Assembly: GCA_030533415.1 (NCBI GenBank)
Contig: JAUNJE010000012.1
Span: 1-59,531 of the forward strand
Origin: Eubacteriales bacterium
Lineage (GTDB): Bacteria > Bacillota > Clostridia > Oscillospirales > Oscillospiraceae
DNA length: 59,531 nt
Direction of reading: 5' to 3'
Shown here: positions 3,292-58,252 of the stretch, piece after piece
How the letters are laid out: the number at the start of each line of letters is the position of its first letter
Numbering within the stretch: the stretch's first letter is position 1
Translations under genes and position numbers: made by a program
The notes under the pieces: model-generated
Databases searched by the model: none
Told to the model about the DNA's origin: nothing
The model's input: only the letters and a program-made list of their open reading frames with translations

Positions 3292-3344
3292 TCCCATTTT
3301 CTGATGAAATGCTTTCATCAAAAAGCCGCCATATAAATACGGCA

Positions 3345-3380: not shown

Positions 3381-3406
3381 GCTTATCTTTGCAAACTTCG
3401 TATCTG

Positions 3407-3811: not shown

Positions 3812-3891
3812 CGTGCACCACCTTTCGTGTAAATCCAGACCATATTTTCAAGCCCCGGAATGCCCGGCGCAAGATCACGCAGCAAAGGTTT

Positions 3892-5040: not shown

Positions 5041-5210
5041 GTTTTTCCGTCCTTTTCATAATATAAGCGCAACAAATCACCAACGCAGGAATGTACGCTC
5101 CCCGTTGGCAACACCGGCATATATCATTAAATCGGACGGTACCGCATGTGAAACACTCCTCAATAAGATATTTTTATCATAGCACAGGAGGTTCCACCCC
5201 GTCAAGCGGG

Positions 5211-5246
5211 CAAAATAAAAACGCTGCTGAAAGCTACAGCAGCGTG
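5211..5246 (-). terminator. Terminator of rpmB
   Basis: Read on the minus strand, a 9-bp stem (ACGCTGCTG with CAGCAGCGT) is followed by TTTTTATTTT, 18 nt after the rpmB stop. Confidence 0.88.
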
Positions 5247-5263
5247 TTTATCAGCCAGGGAAA

Positions 5264-5452
5264 TCAGATAGCGCGCTCGACCTTATTGGAGCGGAGGCAT
5301 CTGGTACAAGCGTACACATGGCAGGGAGTTCCATTCACGACAGCCTTAACGCGCTTGACGTTGGGCTTCCATGCACGATTGGAACGTCTGTGGGAGTGGG
5401 AGACCTTGATACCGAAGGTTACGCCCTTGCCACAAAAATCACACTTAGCCAT
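5264..5452 (-). CDS. rpmB: 50S ribosomal protein L28
   Basis: A 62-residue structural protein of the large subunit. It begins MAKCDFCGKG and carries a second cysteine pair in CTRCLRS near residue 50, so it is the zinc-binding form. The central SHSHRRSNRAWKPN stretch is diagnostic of L28. GGGAGGT lies upstream of the ATG. It is monocistronic, with its own promoter at 5514-5542 and terminator at 5211-5246. Confidence 0.97.
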   Translation of the reverse strand: MAKCDFCGKGVTFGIKVSHSHRRSNRAWKPNVKRVKAVVNGTPCHVYACTRCLRSNKVERAI

Positions 5453-43807: not shown

Positions 43808-44488
43808 TTAATAGCCGTTTAGGGAGCCATCCTTGGCAGCGGTCTGGCCGTAGGTCTGGTAACGGACAAGCACCTGGTCAATCTGCTCCTTTGTCAGCAC
43901 GTTCATCCGGCCTGTGCACAGGCACTGCCATTGAATCTGTGCCAGATTTTCCAGATTGGAAGCAAGATTAAAGGCTTTTTCCAGATTGGGACCAAAGGCC
44001 ACCAGTCCATGGTTTGCCAGCAGCACGGCCCGGCCTCCGTTGCAGGCGGCAACCGCCTTTTTTGCCAGCTCCGGTGTGCCGAAGGTCGCGTATTCGCACA
44101 GGGGAATCTCATGGGTCCCCGCTCCGGCAATGGCATAATGCACCGCGCGGATCGGCTCTCCCATGCAGGCCAGCGTGGTTGCGTAGGTGGAATGGGTATG
44201 TACCACGGCGCCGCAGCCCTTGTCTTCGTTTGCCCGGTAGAAGCCCGCATGCAGGCCATACTCGCTGGAGGGCTTCCGGCTGCCCTCCACCACGTTGCCC
44301 TCCATGTCCATGATCACGATGTCCTCAGGGCGGATATCAAAATATTGCACACCGGAGGGTGTAATGGCAATCAGTCCGGTTTCTCCGTCACGGATGCTCA
44401 GGTTTCCCGCCGTTCCGTGGCTCAGGCCCGCACTGCTCATTTTTCTGCCATACTCGGCAAGCAGCGCTCTTTCTCTTTCCATTCGCAT
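43808..44488 (-). CDS. Class II aldolase (fuculose-1-phosphate aldolase type)
   Basis: Zinc-dependent aldolase of 226 residues that cleaves a ketose-1-phosphate to dihydroxyacetone phosphate and an aldehyde. Catalytic Glu76 is in PSSEYGLH and the zinc ligands are His97 and His99 (VVHTHS) and His160 (LANHGLV), all present. The start at 44488 has AAAGGTGG upstream. It is the last gene of a seven-gene operon. With the MtnK and MtnA-like enzymes nearby, its likely substrate is 5-deoxy- or 5-methylthio-ribulose-1-phosphate, as for Ald2/DrdA, rather than fuculose-1-phosphate (inference). Confidence 0.92.
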   Translation of the reverse strand: MRMERERALLAEYGRKMSSAGLSHGTAGNLSIRDGETGLIAITPSGVQYFDIRPEDIVIMDMEGNVVEGSRKPSSEYGLHAGFYRANEDKGCGAVVHTHSTYATTLACMGEPIRAVHYAIAGAGTHEIPLCEYATFGTPELAKKAVAACNGGRAVLLANHGLVAFGPNLEKAFNLASNLENLAQIQWQCLCTGRMNVLTKEQIDQVLVRYQTYGQTAAKDGSLNGY

Positions 44489-44535
44489 AAAAAGTACCAC
44501 CTTTATCTCTTAATTTTACTTCATTTATGCTTCGT

Positions 44536-45861
44536 TTATTTCGAGGCGTTTGCCGCCACGGCAACGGCGTCCCATACGGATGCAAAGGGCGGTGCATAGC
44601 CGAGGTCCAGGAAGCCCAGCTCCTCCACCGTCATTTCCTGGTCGATGGCACAGGCAAATACATCGATCCGCCATGCCGCCTCCCGGGCTCCCATAATCTG
44701 CGCTCCCAGCAGCACATGGTCCTCCGGCCGGTAGCATAGCTTGACCGTTAAGTCTTTGGGGTCTGGATAATACCGGGCATGGGAGCGGGTCTGCACCGTG
44801 GTGGTTTTGCAGGGAATGCCGTTGGCCGCACATTCCTCCTGTCCCAGGCCGGTTTTTGCGAATTCCATGCCCATGCAGCGCAGCATGGAGGTTCCCAGCG
44901 CCCGCTGGAACGCCACGCGCTTTCCAAGAACACTGTCGCCGGCCAGCCGCCCCTGCTTGTTGGCATTGGTGCCCAGGGCGATCATCATAGGCCGGTCCAG
45001 CAGCTTATGCCAGACGGTGGCACAGTCGCCGGCGGCATACACATCCGGCACCGATGTCTCCATGGCGGGATTCGTAACCACCGCGCCATTGTTCAGCTTC
45101 TCAACGGCACCGCCCAGGAAGCGGGTATTGGGGCTGATGCCGATAGACAAAATCACCAGATCCGCGTCATAGCTCCCCCGGTCGGTGACAATCCGGCTGA
45201 CCGCCGCGCCGCCTTCAAAGGCCATCACCCGTTCCCCGGTGTGAACGGACACGCCATGGCTTTCCAGTTCGACTCTTGCCGCCGCGCCAAATTCCGGATC
45301 GAAGCCATTCAAGACCCGGTCCATGGCCTCAATAACCCGGATGCGGGGCACACCCTGCAGGATGCAGGCCTCTGCCAGCTCCATACCGATATAGCCTCCG
45401 CCCACAATGACGGCATTTTGGGGCTTCTCCATAAGGGCTTGCTTCAGCTGCTGGGCATCCTCCAGGGTTTTTAAGGGGTAAATCCCTTTCTTCGCAATGC
45501 CGGGGATCGGCGGAATCTTGGGGGAGGAGCCTGTGGCAACCAGCAGCTTGTCATAAGGCTCCGTGCAAACCGTCCCCTGGGGGTCCCGGTACAGAACCTG
45601 CTTCTTTTCGTAATCCACCGACTGGACCTCACAGCGTAAGCGCACCCGGATGCCGCTTTTTTCAAAGGTTTCCACACTGCGAATGCGGATCAAATCGATG
45701 TCATCGTTCAGTCCCGCCACATAGTAGGGCAGGCCGCAGGCTCCGTAGGAAACCTCCCGGGTTTTCTCCAGCACCACGACTTCCCACTCCGGTGCCCGGC
45801 GCTTGACCCGGGACGCCGCGCTCATACCGGCGGCATTGCCGCCAATGACTACAAATTTCAC
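44536..45861 (-). CDS. FAD-dependent pyridine nucleotide-disulfide oxidoreductase (CoA-disulfide reductase / NADH oxidase type)
   Basis: A 441-residue flavoprotein with the FAD motif VIGGNAAGMSAA at residues 5-16, the single redox-active cysteine Cys42 in YGACGLPYYVAG, the NAD motif VIVGGGYIGMELAE near 150 and the C-terminal FAD motif VYAAGDCATV near 265. This one-cysteine pattern is that of CoA-disulfide reductases and NADH oxidases. The start is a GTG at 45859-45861 overlapping the DUF35 stop by 4 bp, with AAGGAG upstream. In a locus making acyl-CoA, a CoA-disulfide reductase or CoA-linked role is plausible. Confidence 0.88.
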   Translation of the reverse strand: MKFVVIGGNAAGMSAASRVKRRAPEWEVVVLEKTREVSYGACGLPYYVAGLNDDIDLIRIRSVETFEKSGIRVRLRCEVQSVDYEKKQVLYRDPQGTVCTEPYDKLLVATGSSPKIPPIPGIAKKGIYPLKTLEDAQQLKQALMEKPQNAVIVGGGYIGMELAEACILQGVPRIRVIEAMDRVLNGFDPEFGAAARVELESHGVSVHTGERVMAFEGGAAVSRIVTDRGSYDADLVILSIGISPNTRFLGGAVEKLNNGAVVTNPAMETSVPDVYAAGDCATVWHKLLDRPMMIALGTNANKQGRLAGDSVLGKRVAFQRALGTSMLRCMGMEFAKTGLGQEECAANGIPCKTTTVQTRSHARYYPDPKDLTVKLCYRPEDHVLLGAQIMGAREAAWRIDVFACAIDQEMTVEELGFLDLGYAPPFASVWDAVAVAANASK

Positions 45862-46265
45862 TTGGATTCTCCTTTCAGCCTGACAACAGGCCGCGAATAG
45901 GTGCCGCTGTCCGCAAACCCGATGGTGACCGGGGCGCCGCAGTGCAGACCGTCCATGTCCCCATCCGCCAGATTGGCCAGGATTCGAACGCCCTCCTCCA
46001 AATCCACCGCAGCAACCACATAGGGGACTTTTTCCGCTACACTGGGATGAAAGGGCTTGTGCATCACAACGTAGGAATAGAGCTTTCCCTCCGGCGGCAG
46101 CACGGCAATTTCGGTATCCCCGCTCAGGCAGTCCGGGCACAGATAGGCCCCGGGCCAGCGGACCTTGCCGCAGGCCCTGCAGCGCTGAAAACGCAGCTCA
46201 TGGTTTCGGCAGCCCTCCCAAAAGTCCGCGGTATCCATGTTGACACGCGGTTCAAAAAAATCCAT
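45858..46265 (-). CDS. DUF35 / ChsH2-type Zn-ribbon OB-fold protein
   Basis: A 135-residue protein with an N-terminal zinc ribbon (Cys29, Cys32, Cys43, Cys46 in CRACGKVRWPGAYLCPDC) and an OB-fold (SYVVMHKPFHP, YVVAAVDLEEG). DUF35 proteins are obligate partners of thiolase-like enzymes, for example ChsH2 with Ltp2 in steroid side-chain cleavage, and acetyl-CoA/HMG-CoA synthase complexes in archaea. It is three bases downstream of the thiolase-like gene and overlaps the flavoprotein gene, as expected for a stoichiometric complex. Confidence 0.9.
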   Translation of the reverse strand: MDFFEPRVNMDTADFWEGCRNHELRFQRCRACGKVRWPGAYLCPDCLSGDTEIAVLPPEGKLYSYVVMHKPFHPSVAEKVPYVVAAVDLEEGVRILANLADGDMDGLHCGAPVTIGFADSGTYSRPVVRLKGESK

Positions 46266-46268
46266 GGT

Positions 46269-47453
46269 TCACGCCCCCCTTTCCAACACCAAGGTAATAT
46301 GGCTTTGAAACACCGCGCCGTTATCGCTGCAAACAATCACGGACGGCGCCTTTGTTCCGGGTACCCTGCCCAGCTGGCGCTGGCCGCAGCGGCCGGTCAG
46401 CTGCATCACCGCCTCCGCCACCGGCGTCAGGCCCATAAAATAGCCCTCGGACAGCATACCGCCGGAGGTATTCACGGGCAGTTCTCCCCCCGGCCCCAGC
46501 CGCTGCCGGGTCAGAAACTCCCGGACATCCTCTCTGCGGAAGAAACCGTAGTCCCGCAGGGTCGCTTCTACCGTGTAGGTAAAGCAGTCGTAAAGCTCAC
46601 AGGCATCCACGTCCCGGCATGTGATTCCCGCCATTTCGAAGGCCTGCCGGCTGGCAAGTGCCGCTGCGCTCTCCGGGTCCTCCACACTTAAGCGGAAAGG
46701 AGATACCGGCTGGTTGGCACTGCCAAAGCCCCGCAGCAGCGCGTAAGGGTGTCCCAGCCCTTTGGCCCGCTCCACCGTGGTTAATACGATGGCACGGCCG
46801 CCGTCACTGCTGGGCGTCGCGTCCAGCAGCCGCAGAGGGGCGGCCACCATGGACGAGGCATAATAGGCATCGTCGTCCAGAGGTTTTCCGTACATAGCCG
46901 CCTGGGGATTCAGGCAGGCCCATTGCCGCTGGGCAATGGAAATTTCCTTCCACACCTCCGGGCCGGTGCCGTAGGTTTCCATGGCCCGGCGGGCCTGCAT
47001 GGCGTATTTGGACATGGTGCTCAAATCACCAAAGGCCGCCAAATCGTCGGTGGCCTTGCCGCCGGACAATTCCTTCACAAAGCTGCGCCGGCCGCTGCGG
47101 GCATTGTCGCCGTAGGAAATTACCACATACCGGCACAGGCCGGACGCCAGCAGGCCGATACTATGATACAGCCATCCCCGGGTACAATATGCCTCCTGCC
47201 CAATGACACTGGGGCGGAAGCCCATCTGCTCTGCCACGGTAAAGGCCGTCACATCGTAATCCCCTGCCAGGGGTGCGAAGTGGCGGTACAAAAGCATGGC
47301 ATCCACTTCCCCCTTTTCAATGCCGGCATCCGCCAGGGCATTGCGGATGGCCTCAACGTGAAAGCTCACCGCCGTACGGCCGGGAATCTTCCCCTGGGGG
47401 GTGTAGCCCACCCCCACAATGGCAATTTTATTTTTCAGATGCTCTAAGTTCAT
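46269..47453 (-). CDS. Thiolase-family protein of the SCP2/Ltp2 type
   Basis: A 394-residue thiolase fold. The nucleophile is Cys90 in GQEAYCTRGWLYHSI. Late blocks CELYDCFTYTVEA near 285 and NTSGGMLSEGYFMGLTPVAEA near 335 hold the further active-site residues (histidine positions of classical thiolases differ). This is the group that includes Ltp2-like retro-aldolases and SCP2 thiolases acting with DUF35 partners. The acyl substrate is unknown. It lies 14 bp after the aldehyde dehydrogenase gene, whose acyl-CoA product may be its substrate. Confidence 0.87.
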   Translation of the reverse strand: MNLEHLKNKIAIVGVGYTPQGKIPGRTAVSFHVEAIRNALADAGIEKGEVDAMLLYRHFAPLAGDYDVTAFTVAEQMGFRPSVIGQEAYCTRGWLYHSIGLLASGLCRYVVISYGDNARSGRRSFVKELSGGKATDDLAAFGDLSTMSKYAMQARRAMETYGTGPEVWKEISIAQRQWACLNPQAAMYGKPLDDDAYYASSMVAAPLRLLDATPSSDGGRAIVLTTVERAKGLGHPYALLRGFGSANQPVSPFRLSVEDPESAAALASRQAFEMAGITCRDVDACELYDCFTYTVEATLRDYGFFRREDVREFLTRQRLGPGGELPVNTSGGMLSEGYFMGLTPVAEAVMQLTGRCGQRQLGRVPGTKAPSVIVCSDNGAVFQSHITLVLERGA

Positions 47454-47467
47454 AGGTACGCTCCAGC

Positions 47468-48835
47468 TTATTCTGCCCAGACTTCATCCGGATCCGGAAG
47501 GGTGGACGCATGGTAGTAGGCAACTTTGGTGGTATTCATCAGATGCCGGTAAGTCAGGTTGTCGCTGATGGAGTTATTGCCCCAGCTGCCACAGCCCAAG
47601 CTCATGGTTGGGTGCAGGCCGTTGATGAAATTGCCGCCGGACGCCGCACCGCCGGGCTGGCTGACCACCAGACGGGATACGGGCAGTTCCAGACCCGCCT
47701 GCTCGGCATAGGCTTCCTCATCGGTGTAAATCACGGAGCTGTGGCCCGCGCCCTCCCACAGCAGATTGGCTTTGGCATTGGCCAGGGCCTCCTTAAAGCC
47801 GGTATAGGGGAAAATCTGAACCACCGGGCACAGCTTCTCCCTGCGCAGAAGGTTCTGCCTGGTCATGCCCAGGCTCATAAACAGCAGCAGAGGCGTTTCC
47901 TCGGGAATCTCCAGGCCCAGCAGCGCCGCCAGCTTACAGGGCAGCATGCCTACATGGGCCGGATCGGTCATACCGTTTTCCTTAAACAGGATGCCGGCAA
48001 GGCCCGGCGCCTTGTCCGCAGGCAGAACATAGGCCCCCTTCTCCCGGAAGGCGTCCAGCAACTTTTCCACCTTGTCTGCAGGCACGTGGATGGCCTGCTC
48101 TCCGGTGCAGGGCATGCCGTTATCATAGGAGCGGCTGTTTGTAATCTGGGCAGCGATCTTGTCAAAGTCGGTATAGTCGGGGGCCACAATCACCTGCACA
48201 TTGCCGGGGCCGACGCCGAAGGACGGCCGTCCGCTGGAGTAGGCGGACTTGACCATGGCCGCACCGCCGGTGGCGACCACCACATCCACCTTTTGCATCA
48301 GCTCCTGGGTCAGGGCCATGGACGGCTCTTCCACGATCTGAATCAGGTTTTCCGGTGCGCCTAACTGTGCTAACGCTCCGTTGATCAAATCCACACCATG
48401 CTTCGTCACCTTCTTGGTTCTGGGATGGGGAGAGACGATCATGGCATTGCGGCACTTGATGATATTCATGCCGTTACTGACGGTGGTGGAAACCGGGTTG
48501 GTGGTAGGCACCAGTGCCGCCACAATGCCGAGGGGCTTTGCAAAGGTGGCCAGCTTCTCGGCCGGATCATACTCGATCATGCCGACGGACTTCTTGTCAT
48601 GCAGGAAATGCCAGGCTCCCAGGGTGCAGCGGTGCAGCTTGACGATTTTGCTGTCCACCCGGCCATAGCCGCTTTCCTCCACGGCCTCCTTTGCCAGAAT
48701 TTCCGCATTGTCATAAATCACCTTGCCCATGGCCTTTACCAGGGCATCGACCTGTTGCTGGGTATAGCCCTCCATCTTTTTCTGGGCCTCCCGGGCATTG
48801 GCAATCAGGCCATCGATATAGCTGATACCATCCAT
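47468..48835 (-). CDS. Acylating (CoA-dependent) aldehyde dehydrogenase
   Basis: A 455-residue enzyme of the acetaldehyde/sulfoacetaldehyde/AdhE-N type that oxidises an aldehyde with NAD and CoA to acyl-CoA. The catalytic thiol is Cys243 in SRSYDNGMPCTGEQAI. PTTNPVSTTVSN near residue 110 and GVGPGNVQVIV near 207 are family blocks. The MPCTGEQ variant of the usual xxCAxEQ block may reflect a different aldehyde. The start at 48835 has AAAGGAG upstream. It would use the aldehyde released by the aldolase of the same operon. Confidence 0.9.
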   Translation of the reverse strand: MDGISYIDGLIANAREAQKKMEGYTQQQVDALVKAMGKVIYDNAEILAKEAVEESGYGRVDSKIVKLHRCTLGAWHFLHDKKSVGMIEYDPAEKLATFAKPLGIVAALVPTTNPVSTTVSNGMNIIKCRNAMIVSPHPRTKKVTKHGVDLINGALAQLGAPENLIQIVEEPSMALTQELMQKVDVVVATGGAAMVKSAYSSGRPSFGVGPGNVQVIVAPDYTDFDKIAAQITNSRSYDNGMPCTGEQAIHVPADKVEKLLDAFREKGAYVLPADKAPGLAGILFKENGMTDPAHVGMLPCKLAALLGLEIPEETPLLLFMSLGMTRQNLLRREKLCPVVQIFPYTGFKEALANAKANLLWEGAGHSSVIYTDEEAYAEQAGLELPVSRLVVSQPGGAASGGNFINGLHPTMSLGCGSWGNNSISDNLTYRHLMNTTKVAYYHASTLPDPDEVWAE

Positions 48836-48879
48836 ATATAAATCTCCTTTCTGTATTATAAAATTTACCAATTCTGCTT

Positions 48880-50121
48880 TCAAGTCCTATTCTGCCTCAG
48901 CAGCCGCCGGTAGTACACCAGCATACCGCCGCACAGCAGTATGAACACGATACATAACATCAGGCACAGGAGCAAGGAAGGGCCGTAGCTTCCGCAGCGG
49001 TCATACATCCAGCCCAGGATCCCCGTGGAAAAGGAGGACGCAAAGGTCGACAGCATCATCACCAGGGAAAAGGCCTTGGGATATTCCCTGCCCCGAAAGA
49101 ATTTCTTTGTCAACAACGGCGGCATGATCACGGCCAGGGACATGGCCGCTCCATAGAGCAGGCATCCCGCCGTCATCATGGGGATCCGGTCGGAAAACAG
49201 CACCAGAAACGCCGGCACGCCAAAGGCAGCGCCCGTCACGCAGGCCAGCTTCAGCCCCCGGGCGTCATTGACCTGCCCCAAAAGCACCTTTCCCCCGGCG
49301 TTGGCGATCATGGAGCAGGACACCAGGAACGCCCCGGTTGCCATGGTTTTTCCCATCGCCGTGGCATAGGTCACAATCTGGGCGGAAAAGCCTACGCAGA
49401 ACTGCATGACCCCCGCCGCCAGAAACAGGGCGGTCAGAACGCCAAGTCTGCCCTTTCGGCTCATTTCCAGCATTTTCTCCTCCGGCTGGCCCGCCTCCCT
49501 GGGGACGCCGTAGGGACTGCACCCCACCATTCCAGGCTCCAACCGAATCACAAACAAAGTCATGGGCAGGATCATGAGCAGGCACAGTCCGCCGGTTACA
49601 TAATAGCCCGCACGCCAGCCCCACGCGAAAATCACCCGCTCAAAGGCCATATTGCAGACCATCCCCATGACGCCGGAAAAAGCCGCCGAAATGCCAATGG
49701 CCAATCCCAGCTTTTCGCAAAACCAGTTTGCCAGGATGATCGGCTCGGAGGTGGACAGCAGCATGGCCGACGCGATCCCCAGCAGGAACGCGGAAAGATA
49801 CCACTGCCAAAGGGCCTGGAAGGTTCCCATCAGCGCCGTACAAACCGCCATAACCAGGGCGCTGAGGGACAGGGTCACCCGGGTATCAAACCGGTACAGC
49901 ACCTTTCCGACAAAGGGCAGCAGAATACAGGACGACAGTCCGGCCACCGTCTTGTAAAAGGAAATTCCGCCGACGCTGAAGCCCAGATCCCGGCTGACCG
50001 CCGAAAAGAACAGTCCCATGGTGTTCATGACCACGCCCATGCTGCCGCCCTGCATCATACAGCATCCCAGCAGGACCAGCCAGGCACGGCCGGCACGGTT
50101 TTTACGAATAAGACTGCTCAA
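48880..50121 (-). CDS. Major facilitator superfamily transporter (OFA-like)
   Basis: A 413-residue protein with twelve predicted spans, two six-span halves separated by a charged loop near 200. The N-half YKTVAGLSSCILLPFVGKVL and GFSVGGISFYKT resemble the oxalate/formate-antiporter-like MFS group for carboxylates. It may export an acid end product or import a related compound (inference). It overlaps the alcohol dehydrogenase gene by 20 bp and precedes the aldehyde dehydrogenase gene by 44 bp. Confidence 0.85.
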   Translation of the reverse strand: MSSLIRKNRAGRAWLVLLGCCMMQGGSMGVVMNTMGLFFSAVSRDLGFSVGGISFYKTVAGLSSCILLPFVGKVLYRFDTRVTLSLSALVMAVCTALMGTFQALWQWYLSAFLLGIASAMLLSTSEPIILANWFCEKLGLAIGISAAFSGVMGMVCNMAFERVIFAWGWRAGYYVTGGLCLLMILPMTLFVIRLEPGMVGCSPYGVPREAGQPEEKMLEMSRKGRLGVLTALFLAAGVMQFCVGFSAQIVTYATAMGKTMATGAFLVSCSMIANAGGKVLLGQVNDARGLKLACVTGAAFGVPAFLVLFSDRIPMMTAGCLLYGAAMSLAVIMPPLLTKKFFRGREYPKAFSLVMMLSTFASSFSTGILGWMYDRCGSYGPSLLLCLMLCIVFILLCGGMLVYYRRLLRQNRT

Positions 50122-51262
50122 GGATTTCCAAGGCCTCCTCCTGACTTAAGGGTACGCGCTCATTGGTAAAGCGCCTGTCTATGGACATCCGGGCAATCCC
50201 GGGCAGGGCGTCCCTGGAAATACCGAATTGGGACATTTTCAGATTTGCCACACCGCATTCCTCCATCAGCCATTCCAGCCGTTCCAGCAGGGCCTCCGGC
50301 CCGGCGGCACTTTCCGCACCCATGGCCCGGCTCAGATCGAGCATCCGCTGGCGGTATTCCGGCTGCTTGGCACAGCGGGTCAGATAGGCCCGGCTGATCA
50401 GGATCAGGCCCGCACCGTGGGGCAGTTCCGGGTAGCAGCCGGACATGGCATGCTCCAAGGAATGCTGGGCCGTCAGTCCGCTTAGGGTCAGGCAGAAGCC
50501 CGCCTCGGTGCTGGCCCAGGCCATGTCCGTCCGGGCATCCATGTCGGCACCGTCCCGAACCGCTGCCGGCAGCGAGCGCATGACCCGCTTTATGGCATCC
50601 AGGCCGTAGAGGTCACTGGGCGGATTGGCCGCCTTGCTCAGATAGCACTCCACCGCATGGAACAGCACATCAAAGCCCTGGTAAGCGGTCAGCATTGGCG
50701 GCACACTTGTCATCAGTTCCGGGTCCACCACGCTTAGGGCCGGGAAACTCCAGGGAGTACCGAAGGAAACCTTTTCCTTGCGCTCCGGGTAGGAGATGAC
50801 GCAGCCCGCGTCGGCCTCGGAGCCGGTTCCGGCGGTGGTGGGAATGGCGACGATGGGCAGCGGCCTTGCCTGCAGGGGCAATCCCTTGCCGGAGCCGTCG
50901 CGGACATAGTCCCAGCAGTCGCCGTCATTGACCGCCATTACAGCCATGCCCTTGGCCGCGTCAATGGCACTGCCGCCGCCCAGCGCTACCAGGAAGTCAC
51001 AGCCGGCCTCCCGTGCCATGGCGGCTCCCTCCATCACGTTATCTCTGGTGGGGTTCGGACTGACTTTGTCATAAAGCGTGGCTTTTGCGCCTGCGGCGGC
51101 CAGCTGCTCCAGCAGGCGGTCCAGGTATCCCAGACGCCTGACTGACTTGCCGGAGGTTGTGACTACCAGGGCATGGGTACCGGGGAGCGTTTTTTCATGA
51201 AGCGTTGACAGCACTCCCGCTCCAAAGAGGATCTCGGTGGGCAAATAATATCGAAATTTCAT
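50102..51262 (-). CDS. Iron-containing alcohol dehydrogenase
   Basis: A 386-residue group III dehydrogenase. NAD binding: GGGSAIDAAKG at residues 95-105. Metal ligands: Asp198 and His202 in DVLFHAVE, His267 in QHSLEHAM and His282 in LPHGAGL. It reduces an aldehyde to an alcohol or the reverse, as FucO does for lactaldehyde. It is the first gene of the seven-gene operon (51262-43808), divergent from the DeoR regulator, with AGAGAGGG upstream of the ATG. With the acylating dehydrogenase it would balance redox by dismuting the aldehyde. Confidence 0.93.
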   Translation of the reverse strand: MKFRYYLPTEILFGAGVLSTLHEKTLPGTHALVVTTSGKSVRRLGYLDRLLEQLAAAGAKATLYDKVSPNPTRDNVMEGAAMAREAGCDFLVALGGGSAIDAAKGMAVMAVNDGDCWDYVRDGSGKGLPLQARPLPIVAIPTTAGTGSEADAGCVISYPERKEKVSFGTPWSFPALSVVDPELMTSVPPMLTAYQGFDVLFHAVECYLSKAANPPSDLYGLDAIKRVMRSLPAAVRDGADMDARTDMAWASTEAGFCLTLSGLTAQHSLEHAMSGCYPELPHGAGLILISRAYLTRCAKQPEYRQRMLDLSRAMGAESAAGPEALLERLEWLMEECGVANLKMSQFGISRDALPGIARMSIDRRFTNERVPLSQEEALEILEQSYS

Positions 51263-51365
51263 ATTGATCCCTCTCTTTTGGTTGGTATTTGATTGCGGAA
51301 TTTGAAAAATTTAGAGGAAATTGGCCGAATTTGCCAGTCTTCCACGAAAAACATGCAGAAAACAC

Positions 51366-51395
51366 TTTACGATTCCACAGGTTTTGTGGTATTAT
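51366..51395 (+). promoter_or_regulatory. Possible promoter of the DeoR-type gene
   Basis: TTTACG (51366-51371), an 18-bp spacer and TATTAT (51390-51395), 31 bp before the start codon. The rest of the 164-bp divergent region contains CTTTTGGTTGGTATTTG at 51275-51291, similar to a motif in the ABC operon promoter. Confidence 0.5.
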
Positions 51396-51426
51396 GTTAG
51401 TAATTCAAGAAGAGAGGATGAATCCA

Positions 51427-52194
51427 ATGCTTTCATTTCAGCGTCAAGAGGAGATACGGCACCTGCTCTTGCAGAAGAAAAGCGTCACAGTCGGCGAAAT
51501 CGCCAAGCGCTTTGGTGTCAGCGACGAGACCGTCCGCCGGGATCTGGCAGTGCTTTGCAGCGAGGGCTTTTGCACCAAGACCTACGGCGGCGCTTCCCTG
51601 GCAACAAGAAGCACGTCCATAACCACCTCCAACATCAAGAAAAACCTTTGCGTTGGCGAAAAGCAGCTGATTGCCAAAATCGCCGCCAGCCAGATCAAAC
51701 CCAACGACTGCATCTTTCTGGACCATTCCACCACGGTGGCCGAAATGTGCCAGGAGATCCAGGCCATGCATCTGACCGTCGTTACCAACTCCATGTGGGT
51801 GATCCGGGAGCTGGCCAATCAGAAGAACATCAACCTTGTGGTCACCGGGGGCAACGTCAGTGTGGACGACCAGGGAATGTTCGGCACGGAGACACTGAAC
51901 TTTCTGCGGGAGCATTACTTCGACAAGGTTTTCTTCTCCTGCAAGGGACTGAATCTGACGAAAGGCATTTTCGACGCGAATGCCCAGGTTTCCGCTTTCC
52001 GCCGCGCCCTGTGCGAGCAAAGTGACCAGTCCTATCTGCTGGCAGACCGGACCAAATTCGGCACCCCCGGCTTCGTCCATACCATGCCCTTCCAAAAGCT
52101 GGATTTTCTGATTACCGACCAGGCTCCCAATGACCATTGGACTAAAATGCTGGAAGAACACAATGTTTCCGTCATGTCCTCTCTTCCGGAATGA
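51427..52194 (+). CDS. DeoR-family transcriptional regulator
   Basis: A 255-residue regulator. The N-terminal HTH reads QRQEEIRHLLLQKKSVTVGEI and RFGVSDETVRRDLAVL, the DeoR signature, followed by KTYGGA. The C-terminal domain is the phosphosugar-isomerase-like sensor (VVTNSMWV, VVTGGNV, DKVFFSCKGL). Family ligands are phosphorylated sugar intermediates. The start at 51427 is preferred because the ATG at 51418 abuts the Shine-Dalgarno. It lies between two operons on the other strand and likely controls both through an intermediate such as the pentulose-1-phosphate. Confidence 0.93.
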   Translation: MLSFQRQEEIRHLLLQKKSVTVGEIAKRFGVSDETVRRDLAVLCSEGFCTKTYGGASLATRSTSITTSNIKKNLCVGEKQLIAKIAASQIKPNDCIFLDHSTTVAEMCQEIQAMHLTVVTNSMWVIRELANQKNINLVVTGGNVSVDDQGMFGTETLNFLREHYFDKVFFSCKGLNLTKGIFDANAQVSAFRRALCEQSDQSYLLADRTKFGTPGFVHTMPFQKLDFLITDQAPNDHWTKMLEEHNVSVMSSLPE

Positions 52195-52207
52195 GTTCTG
52201 CTTCCCA

Positions 52208-52246
52208 GCGGCGCCGCAAGCACATTGCGGTGCCGCGTTTGCTTTT
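52208..52246 (+). terminator. Terminator between the DeoR gene and mtnA-like gene
   Basis: An 11-bp stem including one G-U pair (GCGGC-G-CCGCA with TGCGG-T-GCCGC), followed by GTTTGCTTTT, in the 50 bp between convergent stops. Confidence 0.75.
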
Positions 52247-53285
52247 ATCCGAAGTAGGCTTTCAGGTTATAGGGTGAGAAAATCCCCTTGTCCGTCACAA
52301 TCCCATCCACCAGCTTCGGAGGTGTCACATCAAAGGCGGGATAATAGCCCTTTACGCCGGGCAGGGTATGTTTTTGTCCCATGGACTCCGTCACCAGATT
52401 CGGGTCCCGCAGTTCAATCTCCACAGAAGCCATATCCGGATGGGCGGCGTTGGGCGTGCCCGTGGCAAAATAAGGGATGCCCCAATACCTTGCCGCCAGA
52501 GCGATCTGGAAGGTTCCCACCTTGTTGACCACATGGCCGTCCATGGTGATGACGTCTGCGGCGGAAGTAAAGAGATCCACCTGCTTCATCTTCATGGTAT
52601 AGGCGGGCATGTTATCCGTGATGACGGTGGTATCAAAGCCCATGTCACAGGCAACGGACGCCGTAAGCCGCGCTCCCTGATAGTAAGGCCGGGTTTCGGG
52701 ACAGATCATCTTGACCGCGTTGCCCCGCCTGCGGCATTCCCGCAGCAGTGTGCCGATGATGGTCTCGGCAAAGCACTGGGTCATGACGGTGCCGCCGTCG
52801 GGAATCTGATCCGCCAGATGTACGGCGATCTTATCATAGCGGGTGTAGTTCTCATTGACCCGGGCAATGGCGTCGTCCCGGAGCCGTTCCGGTATTTCCG
52901 CCCGGCAGGTTCCCTTCTCCAATTCCTGTTCCAGGACCGACAAGGCCCGCTCCACCACCCGCTTCATCCGCTCCACAGTGGTGGGCCGGGCATGGGACAA
53001 GGTGTAGGCGGCTTTCTTCAGGAACGCCCTGTATTCCCCGTCGGGAAGCTCTCTGGCCTCATAGGCCGCCAGCGCCATCCCCATAGAGGCGGCGGTATAG
53101 GGGCCGCCGCTCTGGGTCACCATATCGAAAATCGCCTGGGCCACTTCCTCATGGCGGCGGCAGACTACGAACGCAACGCGAATGGGATAAATCCTGCGGT
53201 CCAGAATTTTTACCACCCCGTCTTCGTACCATGCGATATTTTCATACCGCAGAAGGAACGCCAAGCCTTCATCTGCTCGATACAT
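52245..53285 (-). CDS. MtnA-like methylthioribose-1-phosphate (or 5-deoxyribose-1-phosphate) isomerase
   Basis: A 346-residue protein of the eIF2B/MtnA family, which isomerises an aldose-1-phosphate to the ketose-1-phosphate. The catalytic cysteine is Cys171 in VMTQCFAE and the catalytic aspartate Asp244 in SAADVITMDGHVVNKVG, with PETRPYYQGARLTA near 196 and VITDNMPAYTM near 221. The family blocks are clear, but several positions differ from classical MtnA (TQCFAE against THCNAG), so the sugar may differ. GGAGG precedes the ATG. Last gene of the ABC importer-kinase operon. A 47-bp fragment of a second copy lies at 39203-39249. Confidence 0.87.
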   Translation of the reverse strand: MYRADEGLAFLLRYENIAWYEDGVVKILDRRIYPIRVAFVVCRRHEEVAQAIFDMVTQSGGPYTAASMGMALAAYEARELPDGEYRAFLKKAAYTLSHARPTTVERMKRVVERALSVLEQELEKGTCRAEIPERLRDDAIARVNENYTRYDKIAVHLADQIPDGGTVMTQCFAETIIGTLLRECRRRGNAVKMICPETRPYYQGARLTASVACDMGFDTTVITDNMPAYTMKMKQVDLFTSAADVITMDGHVVNKVGTFQIALAARYWGIPYFATGTPNAAHPDMASVEIELRDPNLVTESMGQKHTLPGVKGYYPAFDVTPPKLVDGIVTDKGIFSPYNLKAYFG

Positions 53286-53307
53286 ATTGTTACCTCCTGT
53301 TCTTCGG

Positions 53308-54534
53308 TCAATTGGTTTCCTTTACCGCGTCCTTCAGGGCCGCAATATAATCACTGCCCCGCTGGAAGCCGCTTTCACGGCCGAGGATGAATTTCTTCGC
53401 CGCCCGGATGCAGGCCCGCTCCATGGGGATCCGTGTTTCCGGCCGGGTTATGCTTTCCACATAGTTAAATTTGGCGCTGCCTACCACCCGGCGGATGATT
53501 TCCGTTCCCGCGTAGCCCGCGGTATCCCGGAGAATATCGCTGACATACCATCCGGCAAAGCGGGGGGTGGCAAACACCGGATCGGCACAATTTTCCCGGA
53601 TGATCCGCCCGGCCTCCTCCGCAAACAGGGCAAGGGTTTTGTCAATGGTTTGCGCCATCCATTCCTGGAAGACCTGCCGCTGCTGCCGGTCCGCCACAGT
53701 GAACTCCGCATGGGCCCAGGCAAAAACGAAATGGGCGATAATGTTGCCAACATCGTAGCCCGCCGGGCCGTAGAAGGCAAATTCGGGGTCAAGGACCTTG
53801 GTGGAGCCGGGTTTGACAAACACGGAGCCGCTGTGCAGGTCCCCGTGAATCAGGCACTGGGCCTTGGACTGGAAGCTGTTTTTCAGCCTGGCGATCTCCA
53901 GGTGGAGGGCCTCATCCCCATACAGGGTTTCCTGCACAAAGGCCTCGTTGCCCGGAAAGATGCGGTTTCGGCCCTGGGGATTTTTATACGGGTCCGTCAG
54001 CACCAGCCGCTCGGTGATCTCGCACATGGCCGGGTTGAGAAACTGCTTGGTATAGGCCTTTTTCACATCCGCGGGCAGGATCAGGTCGCTGGTACGGATC
54101 AATGTCTGGGCCATGAAGCCGGCCATATCCTCCGCCAAAGTGGGGAAGGTTTTGTGGGCAAGCAGGGCGTCCCGGAGATTCTCATGGTCGCCGATATCCT
54201 CCATAACGACACAGCACATCACCGGATCATACAGATAGATTTCCGGCACATGCTTTGGGGCCAAATGCCGTTCAATTTGAAGGATTTCCGCCTCGATCCG
54301 GTTCCGGTCCGTGCTGGTTTCCTTGCCGGAGGAACGGGAGGTGGTTTCCGCATGCTTGACAATGAGGGACTTGCCGCCATCCGCCGTGGCTACCCGAAAA
54401 ACATAGTTGATGTTTCCGTCTCCGATCTCCCGGCAGGTCAGCTTTTCACCGCCAAAAAATTGTGGCAGCTTCTCCCGGACGTAGGCGACGGTGTCCTGGG
54501 GCGTCATACTGAAATTGTGGTCATACTTGGACAT
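53308..54534 (-). CDS. mtnK: S-methyl-5-thioribose kinase
   Basis: A 408-residue kinase phosphorylating O1 of 5-methylthioribose. The choline-kinase-like fold shows the N-lobe EIGDGNINYVFRV near residue 36, MEDIGDHENLRDAL near 111, the catalytic loop IHGDLHSGSVFV (Asp232) and DPEFAFYGPAGYDVGN near 249. Overall match to MtnK is strong; related kinases also take 5-deoxyribose. It lies 22 bp upstream of the isomerase gene and 13 bp downstream of the permease gene, so imported free sugar is phosphorylated at once. Confidence 0.93.
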   Translation of the reverse strand: MSKYDHNFSMTPQDTVAYVREKLPQFFGGEKLTCREIGDGNINYVFRVATADGGKSLIVKHAETTSRSSGKETSTDRNRIEAEILQIERHLAPKHVPEIYLYDPVMCCVVMEDIGDHENLRDALLAHKTFPTLAEDMAGFMAQTLIRTSDLILPADVKKAYTKQFLNPAMCEITERLVLTDPYKNPQGRNRIFPGNEAFVQETLYGDEALHLEIARLKNSFQSKAQCLIHGDLHSGSVFVKPGSTKVLDPEFAFYGPAGYDVGNIIAHFVFAWAHAEFTVADRQQRQVFQEWMAQTIDKTLALFAEEAGRIIRENCADPVFATPRFAGWYVSDILRDTAGYAGTEIIRRVVGSAKFNYVESITRPETRIPMERACIRAAKKFILGRESGFQRGSDYIAALKDAVKETN

Positions 54535-54547
54535 TTGGCAGCACTCC

Positions 54548-55531
54548 TTATTGCTCTTCCTTGCTGGAAGCGTAAGCGGCGATCAGCGCCACGGCCAGCA
54601 CCGCGCCCTTGACCGCGTTGAGGGAATAGTAGGGCACGCCGATCATGATCAGGCCGTTATCCAAAATGCCCACCAAAGTCGCGCCGATAAGCGTACCAAT
54701 GGCATTGGGCTTTCCCTGCCCGGCCACCGACCGGCCAATAAAGACGGCGGACAGGGCATACATCTGGTAACCTTCCGCGCCCTGGATCTGGGCGGACTGG
54801 TTCCGGGAGCAGACCAGCACGCCGGTCAGCGCGATGAAGAAAGCAGCGATCATGCCGGCAAAGAAGCGGTATTTTTTCACAGGAATGCCGGACAGCTTGG
54901 CCGCAAGCTTATTGCCGCCTACGGCATAGATGTAACGGCCATACTTGGTATATTTCAGGAACACATGCACCACCAGCACGCAGACCAGCATGATGACAAT
55001 AATGGTGGGCGAGGAGCCGATAGTCTTCATGATATCGGGAATGGAGCCGACAGAGGGGGTACCGTCGGGACGGTACATGCCTGCGGAAATGGCGCCGCCA
55101 CCGGTATAGGTCAGGCCCACGCCCTGAAGCACAAACATCATGGCACAGGTCGCCAGCAGGTCGGGAATCTTACACCGGATGATCAGGAACATGGTGATGC
55201 ACTGCAGCAGCATGGTCAGCACAATGGTCAGCAGAGTGGCAGGCAGCAGGCCCATGCCATACCACAGCACAAAGCTCATGACGAAGTAACCGGAAACAGA
55301 CGCCAGAGCGCCGGCCGCCAGGTCAAAGCCGCCCACAGCCAATGTCACGGTAAGGGCCATGGCCAGCACCGTGTTGATGGAAATGGAGCGAAGGATCGTC
55401 TCAAAATTTCCAACGGTCAAAAAGCCGGGCTGGAGGATGGAAAACAGCACCACCGAAACCACAATGGCAATCACCGCTGCCCAATTCTGGACGAAGTTCA
55501 ATATACTATGAGGGGACAGTCTCTTTTTCAT
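54548..55531 (-). CDS. Ribose-type sugar ABC transporter permease
   Basis: A 327-residue RbsC-like permease with eight to ten spans. ALTVTLAVGGFDLAAGALASVSG near residue 58 and the AVGGNKLAAKLSGIPVKKYRF loop near 200, which contacts the ATPase, are family marks. SAVFIGRSVAGQGKPNAIGTLIGA is the C-terminal block. It forms the membrane channel with the ATPase directly upstream (adjacent stop and start). Specificity for a deoxy- or methylthio-pentose is inferred from the kinase. Confidence 0.93.
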   Translation of the reverse strand: MKKRLSPHSILNFVQNWAAVIAIVVSVVLFSILQPGFLTVGNFETILRSISINTVLAMALTVTLAVGGFDLAAGALASVSGYFVMSFVLWYGMGLLPATLLTIVLTMLLQCITMFLIIRCKIPDLLATCAMMFVLQGVGLTYTGGGAISAGMYRPDGTPSVGSIPDIMKTIGSSPTIIVIMLVCVLVVHVFLKYTKYGRYIYAVGGNKLAAKLSGIPVKKYRFFAGMIAAFFIALTGVLVCSRNQSAQIQGAEGYQMYALSAVFIGRSVAGQGKPNAIGTLIGATLVGILDNGLIMIGVPYYSLNAVKGAVLAVALIAAYASSKEEQ

Positions 55532-57043
55532 TTATTTTCCTCCCGTGGAATAGAACATAATTTCATCTTCTGTGGTGTCGGCCGTAACCAGCTCCGCAGT
55601 CACACGGCCATCGTACATGACATAGGTCCGGTCCGTGATCGCCAGGATCTCGGAGGTTTCACTGGTGACATACAGCACACATTTTCCCGCGCTGGCAATA
55701 TCCTGGATCAGCGTAAAAATGTCATGCTTCGCGCCAACATCAACGCCTTTGGTAGGCTCGTCAAAAATATAGACCTCACAGTCCGCCGCCAGCCACTTCC
55801 CGACTGCCACCTTCTGCTGGTTGCCGCCGGAAAGCAGCGCTACAAGCTGGGATGCCGAGGGGGTCTTGATGCCCAGGGAGCGGATATAATTCTGCGCATT
55901 GGCAAACTGCTTTTTTCTGCTGATCAAAATGCCGTTGCTGTACTTGGGAAGCGCCGCGGCGGCCAGGTTGAAGTACACAGGCTCGTCCACCAGGACGCCT
56001 TCCTTGCGGCGCTCCTCCGGAACCAGGCCCAGCTTGTATTTGACGGCATCCGTGGGGGAATGGATCTTCAGCTCCTTCCCCAGATGCAGAATCTGGCCGC
56101 TTTTCTTTGCCCGGGCGCCAAAGATGGTCTTGCACAGCTCACTTTTCCCGGCGCCTACCAGGCCGCTGACGCCGACGATCTCTCCCCTGCGGACATAGAT
56201 GCTGACATTTTTCAGCATGCCTTCCTCGTCACACAGGTTTTTTACCTCGAAAGCGGTATCCCCGATTTCATTCTGAACCTTTGGGAAATTTTCCTCAAAG
56301 GAACGGCCCAGCATCTGATCCACGATGGACTTGATGGTGGTCTCCTTCGTGATGGGATAATCCGCCACGATTTCCCCGTTGCGCATAACGGTAATGGTTT
56401 TGCAGATCTGCAGAACCTCCTGCAGGCGGTGGGAAATAAAAACCACCGCAATGTTTTCCGTTTCCGTCAGATGGTTCACCAGCTTGAACAGCTTTTCGGT
56501 TTCCGCCGTGCTCAGGGGCGCGGTTGGTTCATCCAAAATCAGGAAATTACAGGCCCCTTGCACCGCCCGGGCAATCAAGACCAACTGCTTTTGGGCCAGA
56601 GACAGTTCACTGACCATTTTGTTTACATTGATTTCAATGTGCAGGCGGTCCAGGGTCTGCTGGGCCTCTTGGCGGATGTGCTTCCAATTGACCGCCAGTT
56701 TCCGTTCCATACCGGTGATCAGTTCGTTCATCATAATGTTCTCAGCCACCGTCTGAGAGGGAAACAGCGCCATGTCCACCTCCTGGTAGACAATCTCAAT
56801 CCCCAGCTTTTTCGCAACACCGGGATTGCGCAGCTCAACAGTTTTCCCATCCAGGAGAACTTCACCGGTATAGCCGGGATTTGCGCCCGCCAGAACCTTC
56901 ATCAGGGTCGACTTTCCCGCGCCGTTGGCGCCGACGACCGCCCTGACATCTCCCGTTTCAATCGAGAAATTGACATCGGAAAGCGCTTTTACACCGGGAA
57001 ATTCTATGGATACATTCCGGGTTTCAATTTTGATTTTTTCCAT
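55532..57043 (-). CDS. Ribose-type sugar ABC transporter, double ATPase subunit
   Basis: A 503-residue RbsA-like protein with two ABC domains. The first has Walker A GANGAGKST near residue 38, signature LSLAQKQL near 146 and Walker B FLILDEPT near 168. The second has the degenerate Walker A GLVGAGKSE near 294, signature LLSGGNQQK near 405 and Walker B VYIFDEPTKGVD near 429. The pair energises import through the permease encoded just downstream. It is separated from the binding-protein gene by a terminator hairpin, which would keep its level below that of the binding protein. Confidence 0.95.
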   Translation of the reverse strand: MEKIKIETRNVSIEFPGVKALSDVNFSIETGDVRAVVGANGAGKSTLMKVLAGANPGYTGEVLLDGKTVELRNPGVAKKLGIEIVYQEVDMALFPSQTVAENIMMNELITGMERKLAVNWKHIRQEAQQTLDRLHIEINVNKMVSELSLAQKQLVLIARAVQGACNFLILDEPTAPLSTAETEKLFKLVNHLTETENIAVVFISHRLQEVLQICKTITVMRNGEIVADYPITKETTIKSIVDQMLGRSFEENFPKVQNEIGDTAFEVKNLCDEEGMLKNVSIYVRRGEIVGVSGLVGAGKSELCKTIFGARAKKSGQILHLGKELKIHSPTDAVKYKLGLVPEERRKEGVLVDEPVYFNLAAAALPKYSNGILISRKKQFANAQNYIRSLGIKTPSASQLVALLSGGNQQKVAVGKWLAADCEVYIFDEPTKGVDVGAKHDIFTLIQDIASAGKCVLYVTSETSEILAITDRTYVMYDGRVTAELVTADTTEDEIMFYSTGGK

Positions 57044-57073
57044 GGATTCCCTTCCTTTATAGAAATGCAGATA

Positions 57074-57106
57074 TAAAAAGGCTGGGGCTGCGGTATGCGC
57101 CCCAGC
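57074..57106 (-). terminator. Attenuating hairpin between the binding-protein and ATPase genes
   Basis: On the minus strand GCTGGGG pairs with CCCCAGC, followed by CTTTTTATA, inside the 78-bp gap. It would terminate part of the transcripts. Confidence 0.75.
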
Positions 57107-57121
57107 GCTTCTTTTCGGATT

Positions 57122-58252
57122 TTAACCGGCCAGGTAAGGCTTCATCCAGTCACTGATGTGGTCATCATTGACGCCGTAGCCTTCAATGATCCCGCCCAGA
57201 TTGGTGACATTGGAATCAGGAGTCAGCTGGTCATAAGTAACAATGGAGGGAGTCAGGTTGTATACGCTCTCCGTTTCTTCTCCCTTCAGCATCATGGCTA
57301 GGATGCGGACGCCCTGCTGGCCGATGGTGGTAAAGTCAACGGTTGCGCAGGCCTGCCATACTCCGGTACCATCCATCATGTAGTTGATATCCTGGTTGGA
57401 GATATCCACGGAAACCATGGGAATATCGGTACGGCCGGCCTCGCTCAGCGCCACATAAGCGCCCCGGCCATAGGCATCGTAGCAGCACCAGATGGCATCG
57501 ACAGAACCTTCGGGATACTTGGGCAGAGCGGCGGCCATAACGTCGGTCATGGAGGACTCACCGTTCTTAGGATCGGCGGGGGCCAGAACCTCCAGCGTCT
57601 CGATCACGCCCTTTTCCTCATACTCCAGGTAAGCTTCCTGACGGCGGTCAAAGGGAGAGATGCCGGGGCCGCGCCAAATTTTCAGGATCTTAACAGGCTC
57701 GCCTGCCTCAACCTTCTCAGGATACATATCCAGAACGTAATCCAGCAGCATGGCTGCCATACCCTGGTCATCCTGGAACATCTGCGTCACACCTTCTATT
57801 GTGACATTGGCGCCGGACGCGTCAACAAACTGGGTATCAAAGCAAACCACTTTGATATCTTTCTCGACCAGGCCGGTGACCAGGTCGTAGGAAGTTTCCT
57901 GATTGCCGTGGGAGAGGAACATGGCATCATACCCTTGGTTGGCGCAGGTGGAAACGGTGTCCTGGAAACGAACGTTGTCCGTATCGGTGAAATAGACATC
58001 ACAGGTAGCACCCAAGGCCTCAGCGGTTTCCTTCGCTGCTTTGGCAGCCAGCTGGAAAATGTCCGTGGAGACGACATTCAGGATGTACGCAATCCGCTTG
58101 CCTTGCAGGGGGAGTTCTTCCGTCTGAACGGGGACCTCGGAGTTGTCGGGCACATTGTTTGCGGGGGTGGTCTCAGCGGGTTTGGTTGCAGCGCAGGCAC
58201 ATAAGCTCAATACAAAAAGCGCAGCCAGCACCAGAGCAATCAGCTTCTTCAT
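57122..58252 (-). CDS. Sugar ABC transporter substrate-binding lipoprotein
   Basis: A 376-residue RbsB/periplasmic-binding-protein-like lipoprotein. The signal peptide ends with SLCAC, so the lipid cysteine is Cys18 or Cys20. The mature part starts with a Thr/Pro linker, then the type I fold GKRIAYILNVVSTDIFQLAA near residue 52, and ligand-pocket residues around DTQFVD and VSVDISNQD. It captures the sugar for the RbsA/RbsC-like pair encoded downstream. First gene of a five-gene operon with the promoter at 58307-58335. Confidence 0.92.
   Translation of the reverse strand: MKKLIALVLAALFVLSLCACAATKPAETTPANNVPDNSEVPVQTEELPLQGKRIAYILNVVSTDIFQLAAKAAKETAEALGATCDVYFTDTDNVRFQDTVSTCANQGYDAMFLSHGNQETSYDLVTGLVEKDIKVVCFDTQFVDASGANVTIEGVTQMFQDDQGMAAMLLDYVLDMYPEKVEAGEPVKILKIWRGPGISPFDRRQEAYLEYEEKGVIETLEVLAPADPKNGESSMTDVMAAALPKYPEGSVDAIWCCYDAYGRGAYVALSEAGRTDIPMVSVDISNQDINYMMDGTGVWQACATVDFTTIGQQGVRILAMMLKGEETESVYNLTPSIVTYDQLTPDSNVTNLGGIIEGYGVNDDHISDWMKPYLAG

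Follow-up and report, generated by a model that had tools for sequence, protein, structure and literature searches.

A thiolase-fold protein with selenocysteine-type relatives in a dihydroxyacetone phosphate shunt locus of a gut bacterium, and its tentative role in reductive carbon-sulfur cleavage

Described pathways and related enzymes

The closest described system is the dihydroxyacetone phosphate (DHAP) shunt (MtnK-MtnA-Ald2 or DrdK-DrdI-DrdA), which combines a kinase, an isomerase and a class II aldolase according to the available parts of PMC6079011, PMC10986504 and PMC12632272, and which in the first two releases DHAP together with acetaldehyde or methylthioacetaldehyde. The same three enzymes are encoded in one neighbourhood of a gut bacterium of the Eubacteriales (assembly GCA_030533415.1, contig JAUNJE010000012.1). 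The window is the whole analysed stretch of 59,531 nucleotides, which is contig 4 of the 2.72 Mb draft genome. A DeoR regulator and a transporter are present, as is likewise described for the E. coli shunt in the available sources. In contrast to the described shunts, the window adds a fixed cassette predicted to act on the aldehyde, consisting of a CoA-acylating aldehyde dehydrogenase, a thiolase-fold protein, a DUF35 protein and a flavoprotein resembling CoA-disulfide reductases, and its isomerase has divergent motifs. The thiolase-fold protein has relatives with selenocysteine at the position of its Cys90, and a reductive thiolytic cleavage of an alpha-substituted acyl-CoA, in the simplest case of methylthioacetyl-CoA to acetyl-CoA and methanethiol, is tentatively proposed here as a possible reaction.

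Comparable sulfur salvage is known from the DHAP-methanethiol and DHAP-ethylene shunts of Rhodopseudomonas and Rhodospirillum, in which methylthioribulose-1-phosphate also gives methylthioacetaldehyde. In the available text of PMC5893883, these routes proceed via methylthioethanol and their carbon-sulfur cleaving enzymes are called unknown, whereas the route proposed for the window would proceed via an acyl-CoA. The steroid aldolases Ltp2-ChsH2 (6ok1) and Sal-Shy (9myr), of which ChsH2 and Shy are DUF35 proteins, share the fold, the DUF35 partner and the catalytic Tyr/Cys positions. However, the window protein has a Cys, exchanged for selenocysteine in relatives, at the nucleophile position and a disulfide-reductase-like partner, and no steroid context was seen. 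DUF35-type and SCP2-type thiolases (6esq, 7yvy, 6hsj) share the fold and the Cys at the nucleophile position, and 6esq also has a DUF35 partner, but the window protein has Tyr in place of their HDCF/HDAF and GHP-type His residues. The selenoproteins of glycine reductase (PMC13188914) use selenocysteine/Cys for the reductive removal of an alpha substituent, similar to the proposal made here, although the proteins are unrelated and the product of glycine reductase is acetyl phosphate. CoA-disulfide and CoA-persulfide reductases share their fold, redox Cys and Tyr motifs with the window flavoprotein, which differs in being tied to a thiolase-fold enzyme and in its proposed substrate, a mixed disulfide. 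In line with the original prediction, no described pathway with this gene set was found in the open-access literature.

Active site of the thiolase-fold protein and selenocysteine in its relatives

The cassette comprises the following features:

47468..48883, minus strand: CoA-acylating aldehyde dehydrogenase, nearest solved structure of SucD type (8cei, 4.9e-134)
46269..47453, minus strand: thiolase-fold protein with Cys90, Tyr288-Asp-Cys290-Phe and Tyr338 (profiles, structure alignments)
47184..47186, minus strand: codon of Cys90 in the thiolase-fold gene (TGA at the equivalent position in 37 of 72 aligned relatives)
45858..46265, minus strand: DUF35 partner, zinc ribbon plus OB (OB_ChsH2_C 67 bits, zf-ChsH2 40 bits; 6ok1_B 1.9e-21)
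44536..45861, minus strand: CoA-disulfide-reductase-like FAD protein (PRK09564, 463 bits against a cut-off of 458, scanned without the first 6 residues)

Relatives of the thiolase-fold protein were collected by scanning genome contigs with an alignment of four orthologues, which resulted in 73 loci. In the alignments with the thiolases 6esq and 7yvy, Cys90 falls on their nucleophile Cys. However, both catalytic His positions of SCP2-type thiolases, which we take to be those of the HDCF and GHP motifs, are occupied by Tyr288 and Tyr338, and the resulting YDC[FY] and E[AGS]Y motifs occur in 70 of 70 readable rows. For this reason, an ordinary thiolase identity was set aside for the gene at 46269-47453. 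The SCP2/Ltp2-type thiolase named in the original prediction was right for the fold, but the protein is not a canonical thiolase, and the thiolase reaction suggested there for the acyl-CoA conflicts with the two Tyr residues and with the TGA codons at the nucleophile position. A genuine thiolase that forms or splits a 3-oxoacyl-CoA, such as acetoacetyl-CoA from two acetyl-CoA, would fit the fold and the Cys at the nucleophile position. Selenocysteine could dispense with the activating His, and a Desulfurella relative lies near genes that by eye resemble those of beta-oxidation. Nevertheless, this explanation is very improbable given the invariant Tyr at both His positions, and it leaves the flavoprotein without a role.

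The alignment with 6ok1 places Tyr residues of the window protein at both catalytic Tyr positions of Ltp2, and the alignments with 6ok1 and 9myr recover the Tyr of the YDxF/Y motif together with the acid Tyr (Ltp2) or acid Cys (Sal), residues whose catalytic roles are described in the available text of PMC12329534. Based on this, the thiolase-fold/DUF35 pair could be a Sal/Ltp2-type CoA aldolase that joins the acyl-CoA made by the aldehyde dehydrogenase to an aldehyde, for example acetyl-CoA and acetaldehyde to 3-hydroxybutyryl-CoA, or performs the reverse reaction. However, these aldolases lack a nucleophile Cys: the position of Cys90 is Ala in Ltp2 and Ser in Sal according to the alignments, and Gly according to the available part of PMC12329534. 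The fold comparison does not favor them either, as the putative thiolase 4u4e ties with Ltp2 and Sal (Z 40.9), closely followed by 6esq, an acetoacetyl-CoA thiolase (40.4). In an aldolase, neither the Cys or selenocysteine nor the disulfide-reductase-like partner would have a function, and this explanation is considered unlikely.

Many relatives first seemed truncated near residue 90, which is explained by an in-frame TGA at this site. Besides the 37 loci with TGA, read in tblastn frames, the other 35 of the 72 aligned loci have a Cys codon, as does the window, although four of these (L072, L075, L076, L077) align uncertainly. In the one remaining locus (L074), Cys is absent from this position. 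Since one of the two search patterns included Cys, the ratio of TGA to Cys reflects a biased sample. The TGA loci all fall within L043-L087, mainly from Deltaproteobacteria, and contain the thiolase-fold and DUF35 pair. No other in-frame stop was found in the aligned stretches, except in L085, which looks frameshifted. Since the TGA stands in frame where homologues have a Cys, these relatives agree with bacterial selenoproteins in this respect.

Part of the rows show a hairpin just 3' of the TGA that resembles a selenocysteine insertion sequence (GCACGC-loop-GCGTGC). Silent-site identity, counted over codons that are identical in their first two bases, was 1.00, 0.89, 1.00 and 1.00 at the stem codons 6, 7, 10 and 11, compared to 0.54 at the loop codons 8 and 9 and a mean of 0.49 (sd 0.17) elsewhere; codons -1 and -4 reached 0.89 and 0.83. 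The pairing showed no compensatory changes, and at one pair 17 of 35 distinct rows had a mismatch. This missing covariation signal is due to the high conservation of the hairpin. Rfam returned no match for the hairpin of L059, the sole locus tried. SelB exceeded its cut-off in all 16 tested genomes with a selenocysteine-type protein, taken from 16 of the 37 loci, compared to 7 of 14 with the Cys type and 2 of 14 controls. A tree of 69 rows requires two changes, for which a single gain of selenocysteine and a single reversion to Cys (L040) is the simplest account. In this tree, the nine rows of the window and its closest relatives form a single group (97/98) beside Syntrophomonadaceae, a join flagged for long branches by the tree program.

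The table of 119 selenoprotein families in PMC13188914 contains no thiolase-fold member, and a text search of the available parts of PMC12013277 and PMC9312934 gave no mention of a thiolase. No report of a thiolase-fold selenoprotein was found in the open-access literature, which is not proof of absence. NCBIfam provided only generic names, below cut-off, for two selenocysteine-type proteins.

Cassette, pathway genes and their distribution

Eight of the 73 loci encode proteins 74-92% identical to the window thiolase-fold protein, and in all nine, including the window, aldehyde dehydrogenase, thiolase-fold protein, DUF35 protein and flavoprotein occur together. Neighbouring genes were taken from a simple gene caller and named by eye unless profiles are cited. 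The aldehyde dehydrogenase is closest to the acylating succinate-semialdehyde dehydrogenase 8cei, followed by AdhE (4.7e-83). The DUF35 gene adjoins the thiolase-fold gene in the window, and DUF35 is present in 69 of the 73 loci. The flavoprotein was given no role in the original prediction, but it is as constant as the other members. The active-site Cys of CoA-disulfide reductase is kept in 9/9 cassette flavoproteins, that of the window among them, and the Tyr motifs in all eight readable ones including the window (L020 is cut by the contig end; L022 has RYFP instead of RYYP). Instead of the major facilitator superfamily (MFS) carrier of the window, another carrier with weak likeness to sodium symporters lies at the cassette in three relatives.

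In two of five Syntrophomonadaceae loci (L025, L030), profiles revealed a CoA-disulfide-reductase-type protein with a rhodanese domain downstream of the thiolase-fold/DUF35 pair. It is the next gene in L030 and lies about 2.6 kb further on in L025, beyond CoA-transferase genes. Similar CoA-transferase genes, named by eye, are found in L027, and neither was seen in the examined stretches of L024 and L026. A CoA transferase would stand in for the aldehyde dehydrogenase as the source of the acyl-CoA. In Desulfatibacillum alkenivorans (L059, 14082-16205), two genes follow downstream of the selenocysteine-type pair at a distance of about 2.5 kb, with other genes in between: one that looks DsrE-like by eye and one of CoA-disulfide-reductase type, encoding 575 amino acids (tblastn, 31%).

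All genes under study lie within 43808-58252 according to the open reading frame list and profile scans, which confirmed every gene named in the original prediction. The remaining features are:

57122..58252, minus strand: sugar-binding lipoprotein of a ribose-type ABC importer (Peripla_BP_4, 95 bits)
55532..57043, minus strand: ATPase of a sugar ABC importer, AraG/RbsA type (profile scans)
54548..55531, minus strand: permease of a sugar ABC importer, RbsC type (BPD_transp_2, 117 bits; PRK09512 best but below cut-off)
53308..54534, minus strand: MtnK, 5-methylthioribose/5-deoxyribose kinase (TIGR01767, 367 bits against a cut-off of 275)
52245..53285, minus strand: MtnA-like sugar-1-phosphate isomerase with divergent motifs (PRK05720, 325 against 271; TIGR00512, 189 against 279)
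51427..52194, plus strand: DeoR-family regulator between the operons (DeoRC 163 bits, HTH_DeoR 60 bits)
50102..51262, minus strand: iron alcohol dehydrogenase (Fe-ADH, 170 bits)
48880..50121, minus strand: MFS carrier (MFS_1, 91 bits; weak, sub-cut-off likeness to monocarboxylate and oxalate-formate carriers)
43808..44500, minus strand: class II aldolase, DrdA/FucA type (Aldolase_II, 189 bits; 6btd, 1.1e-55)

The importer operon (58252 to 52245) and the aldolase operon (51262 to 43808) are both on the minus strand. The genes of the latter overlap or are closely spaced, and the GTG start of the flavoprotein shares 4 bases with the DUF35 stop. The deoR gene lies between the two operons, but these are in tandem and, unlike in the original prediction, do not strictly face it: the plus-strand deoR is divergent from the operon starting with the iron alcohol dehydrogenase and convergent with mtnA. 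The locus is probably controlled by the DeoR protein; A/C-rich words common to the promoters were found in the operator search, too weak to use.

The kinase reaches the equivalog cut-off of MtnK. The isomerase stays below the cut-off of the MtnA equivalog TIGR00512 and exceeds only that of PRK05720, a broader subfamily. It retains the Cys, Asp and Asn-Lys of MtnA, with TQSGGPY and TQCFAET replacing the RGAP and THCNAG motifs, which are present in the MtnA of L102, L104, L105, L108 and L109 (RGAP partly unaligned in some). Three further mtnK-mtnA pairs (L103, L106, L107) share the divergent motifs and showed no cassette in the stretch examined; only L103 has an aldolase match. The aldolase retains the class II Glu and His motifs, which we take to have their usual roles. 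By E-value, it is equidistant from 6btd, which is DrdA in the available part of PMC6079011, and pneumococcal FucA (4c24, 1.5e-55). Since DrdK accepts both methylthioribose and 5-deoxyribose (Table 1 in the available part of PMC6079011), the sugar substrate, be it one of these or another, is not readable from the sequence. Judged by these genes, the upstream half is predicted to be an ordinary DHAP shunt, with the cassette as the new part.

The whole block is found again in L015, whose contig starts at the ATPase, and in L016, while in L020 and L022 a different class II aldolase accompanies the cassette, ATPase, permease, mtnK, mtnA and deoR. Because this gene order is also found in other genomes, the gene set is more than chance, and the predicted union of a DHAP-shunt front end with an aldehyde to acyl-CoA branch carrying a thiolase-fold and a DUF35 protein is supported and not confined to the host strain. 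In L022, from a Subdoligranulum metagenome-assembled genome, two MtnK copies flank a class II aldolase (2095-5300). A plain 5-deoxyribose shunt, in which acetaldehyde is dismuted to ethanol and acetyl-CoA and the thiolase-fold protein, DUF35 protein and flavoprotein are passengers or belong to general acyl-CoA metabolism, would agree with a front end matching the known shunts (PMC6079011, PMC10986504, as available). It is rather improbable considering that the four cassette genes are kept together in 9/9 loci and that none of eight other mtnK stretches examined in the family has a thiolase-fold or DUF35 match. Two loci of the same family, L102 (genome G086) and L104 (G138), combine the same importer type and MtnK with microcompartment genes, which would be in keeping with acetaldehyde in a plain shunt; their MtnA is canonical and their class II aldolase a different one. 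L102 encodes PduL (244 against 209 bits), a microcompartment-type aldehyde dehydrogenase (636 against 403) and sub-cut-off CcmL/EutN-like and RnfC-like proteins, and L104 a EutM-like shell protein (130 against 133). From their gene content, both are predicted to be DHAP shunts of a microcompartment type. In the available part of PMC7593272, a methylthioribose kinase gene beside the pdu cluster of A. woodii is called unrelated.

MtnK was over cut-off in five of the nine cassette genomes, always at the cassette locus, and was not found at E <= 0.001 in the other four (L017, L018, L019, L021). Each of these has a class II aldolase of 54-72% identity in a different operon, termed type B (L010/L011/L101, L131, L132 and L021), on the cassette contig in L017 and L021 and on a separate contig in L018 and L019. 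All four type B operons contain the aldolase, a 2-hydroxyacid dehydrogenase, LarA and a SAF/UxaA_C pair. This pair was considered as a possible SuyAB, but matched only galactarate dehydratase below cut-off and 6u7l. Three add an FGGY kinase and, adjoining the aldolase, a molybdoenzyme of the DmsA (DMSO-reductase) family with an N-terminal extension; two of these also have an ABC importer, and the third contig begins within the set. L021 has a phosphotransferase system (PTS) and a zinc alcohol dehydrogenase instead of the FGGY kinase and DmsA. The cassette therefore goes with class II aldolase pathways generally.

A close orthologue (76-84%) was found in three of 300 family genomes besides the host, with two more giving only 29-32% matches. 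There was none in five listed genomes of the host genus, and of 394 genomes drawn from the order, the host alone had one at E <= 1e-100. We infer that the gene was transferred between genera.

Proposed reaction and its meaning

Beyond the genes, their conservation, the active-site make-up and the TGA/Cys exchange, which are observed, the chemistry and the substituent X are proposals. The locus would serve the catabolism of a 5-substituted ribose. From what is known of the families, the ABC importer would take up the sugar, MtnK would form the 1-phosphate, the MtnA-like enzyme the ketose-1-phosphate, and the DrdA-like aldolase would free DHAP and an aldehyde X-CH2-CHO. The acylating dehydrogenase would convert this aldehyde to X-CH2-CO-SCoA with formation of NADH, with the iron alcohol dehydrogenase as an overflow route to the alcohol.

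In thiolases, the point of attack for the Cys is the atom attached to the alpha carbon of the acyl-CoA, with the acetyl-CoA enolate as leaving group. If this atom is a sulfur, the same geometry gives a thiolytic carbon-sulfur cleavage. As the new step, the thiolase-fold/DUF35 enzyme would hold X-CH2-CO-SCoA in thiolase fashion, and the Cys90 thiolate, or the selenolate of relatives, would attack X on the alpha carbon instead of a carbonyl carbon. The expelled acetyl-CoA enolate would be protonated by Tyr338 or Cys290, leaving Cys90 as a mixed disulfide that the flavoprotein would reduce using NADH. With SCH3 as X, the net conversion of methylthioacetaldehyde and CoA to acetyl-CoA and methanethiol would be redox-neutral and yield carbon, ATP and re-usable sulfur. 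This reductive cleavage is suggested by the selenocysteine at the nucleophile position, the loss of the acyl-transfer His residues, the Tyr and Cys acids near the enolate and the disulfide-reductase-like partner. The involvement of sulfur is further suggested by the rhodanese-containing reductases of Syntrophomonadaceae and the S-oxide-reductase-family enzyme beside the aldolase in three of four type B operons. The host genome encodes two MetY over cut-off that could in principle use methanethiol. The removal of alpha-thio groups by Cys catalysis in omega-class glutathione transferases would be a precedent.

Several points weigh against this reaction, which is predicted from context and sequence. 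None of the 65 distant loci has an aldehyde dehydrogenase match and 61 have no match to the window flavoprotein (both at E <= 1e-12, with many contigs short). Of the four flavoprotein matches, that of L044 is on the opposite strand and looks like another reductase. As a guide to the substrate, the neighbourhoods of Deltaproteobacteria were set aside, since the neighbour clusters and nine viewed loci showed no constant neighbour but DUF35. MetY is common, as 9 of the 14 controls also exceed its cut-off, the substrate of the DmsA-like enzyme may be a different one, and selenocysteine could replace the missing base through its low pKa in ordinary acyl transfer. SCH3 may also be the wrong X in the four MtnK-less genomes, since their aldolase pathway, with FGGY kinase or PTS, 2-hydroxyacid dehydrogenase, LarA and UxaA-family pair, need not give a thioether aldehyde.

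Alternatively, the same reductive logic could apply to another 5-substituted ribose with X other than SCH3. The acceptance of more than one sugar by DrdK, the departure of the window isomerase from canonical MtnA motifs and the type B operons, which seem to supply the same cassette from other sugars, are consistent with this. However, the MtnK match is at equivalog level, and we know of no other 5-substituted ribose that is a common nutrient, which makes this alternative improbable.

In its broadest form, the proposed cleavage would mean that the thiolase fold gave rise to selenocysteine/Cys "heteroatom thiolases" for the reductive cleavage of the alpha carbon-sulfur bond, or a similar bond, of an acyl-CoA, with DUF35 and a disulfide reductase as partners. 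In gut Clostridia, they would complete an oxygen-independent route from methylthioribose to acetyl-CoA and methanethiol, and in sulfate reducers and syntrophs they would represent an unlisted selenoprotein. This generalization is conceivable but doubtful. If true, it would provide an enzyme class for the anaerobic carbon-sulfur cleavage left open by the DHAP-shunt work (PMC5893883, as available), a possible source of methanethiol in the gut, and a selenoprotein family of a fold absent from the 119-family list (PMC13188914). Even with a different reaction, selenocysteine at the nucleophile site of a thiolase-fold enzyme is a direct surprise.

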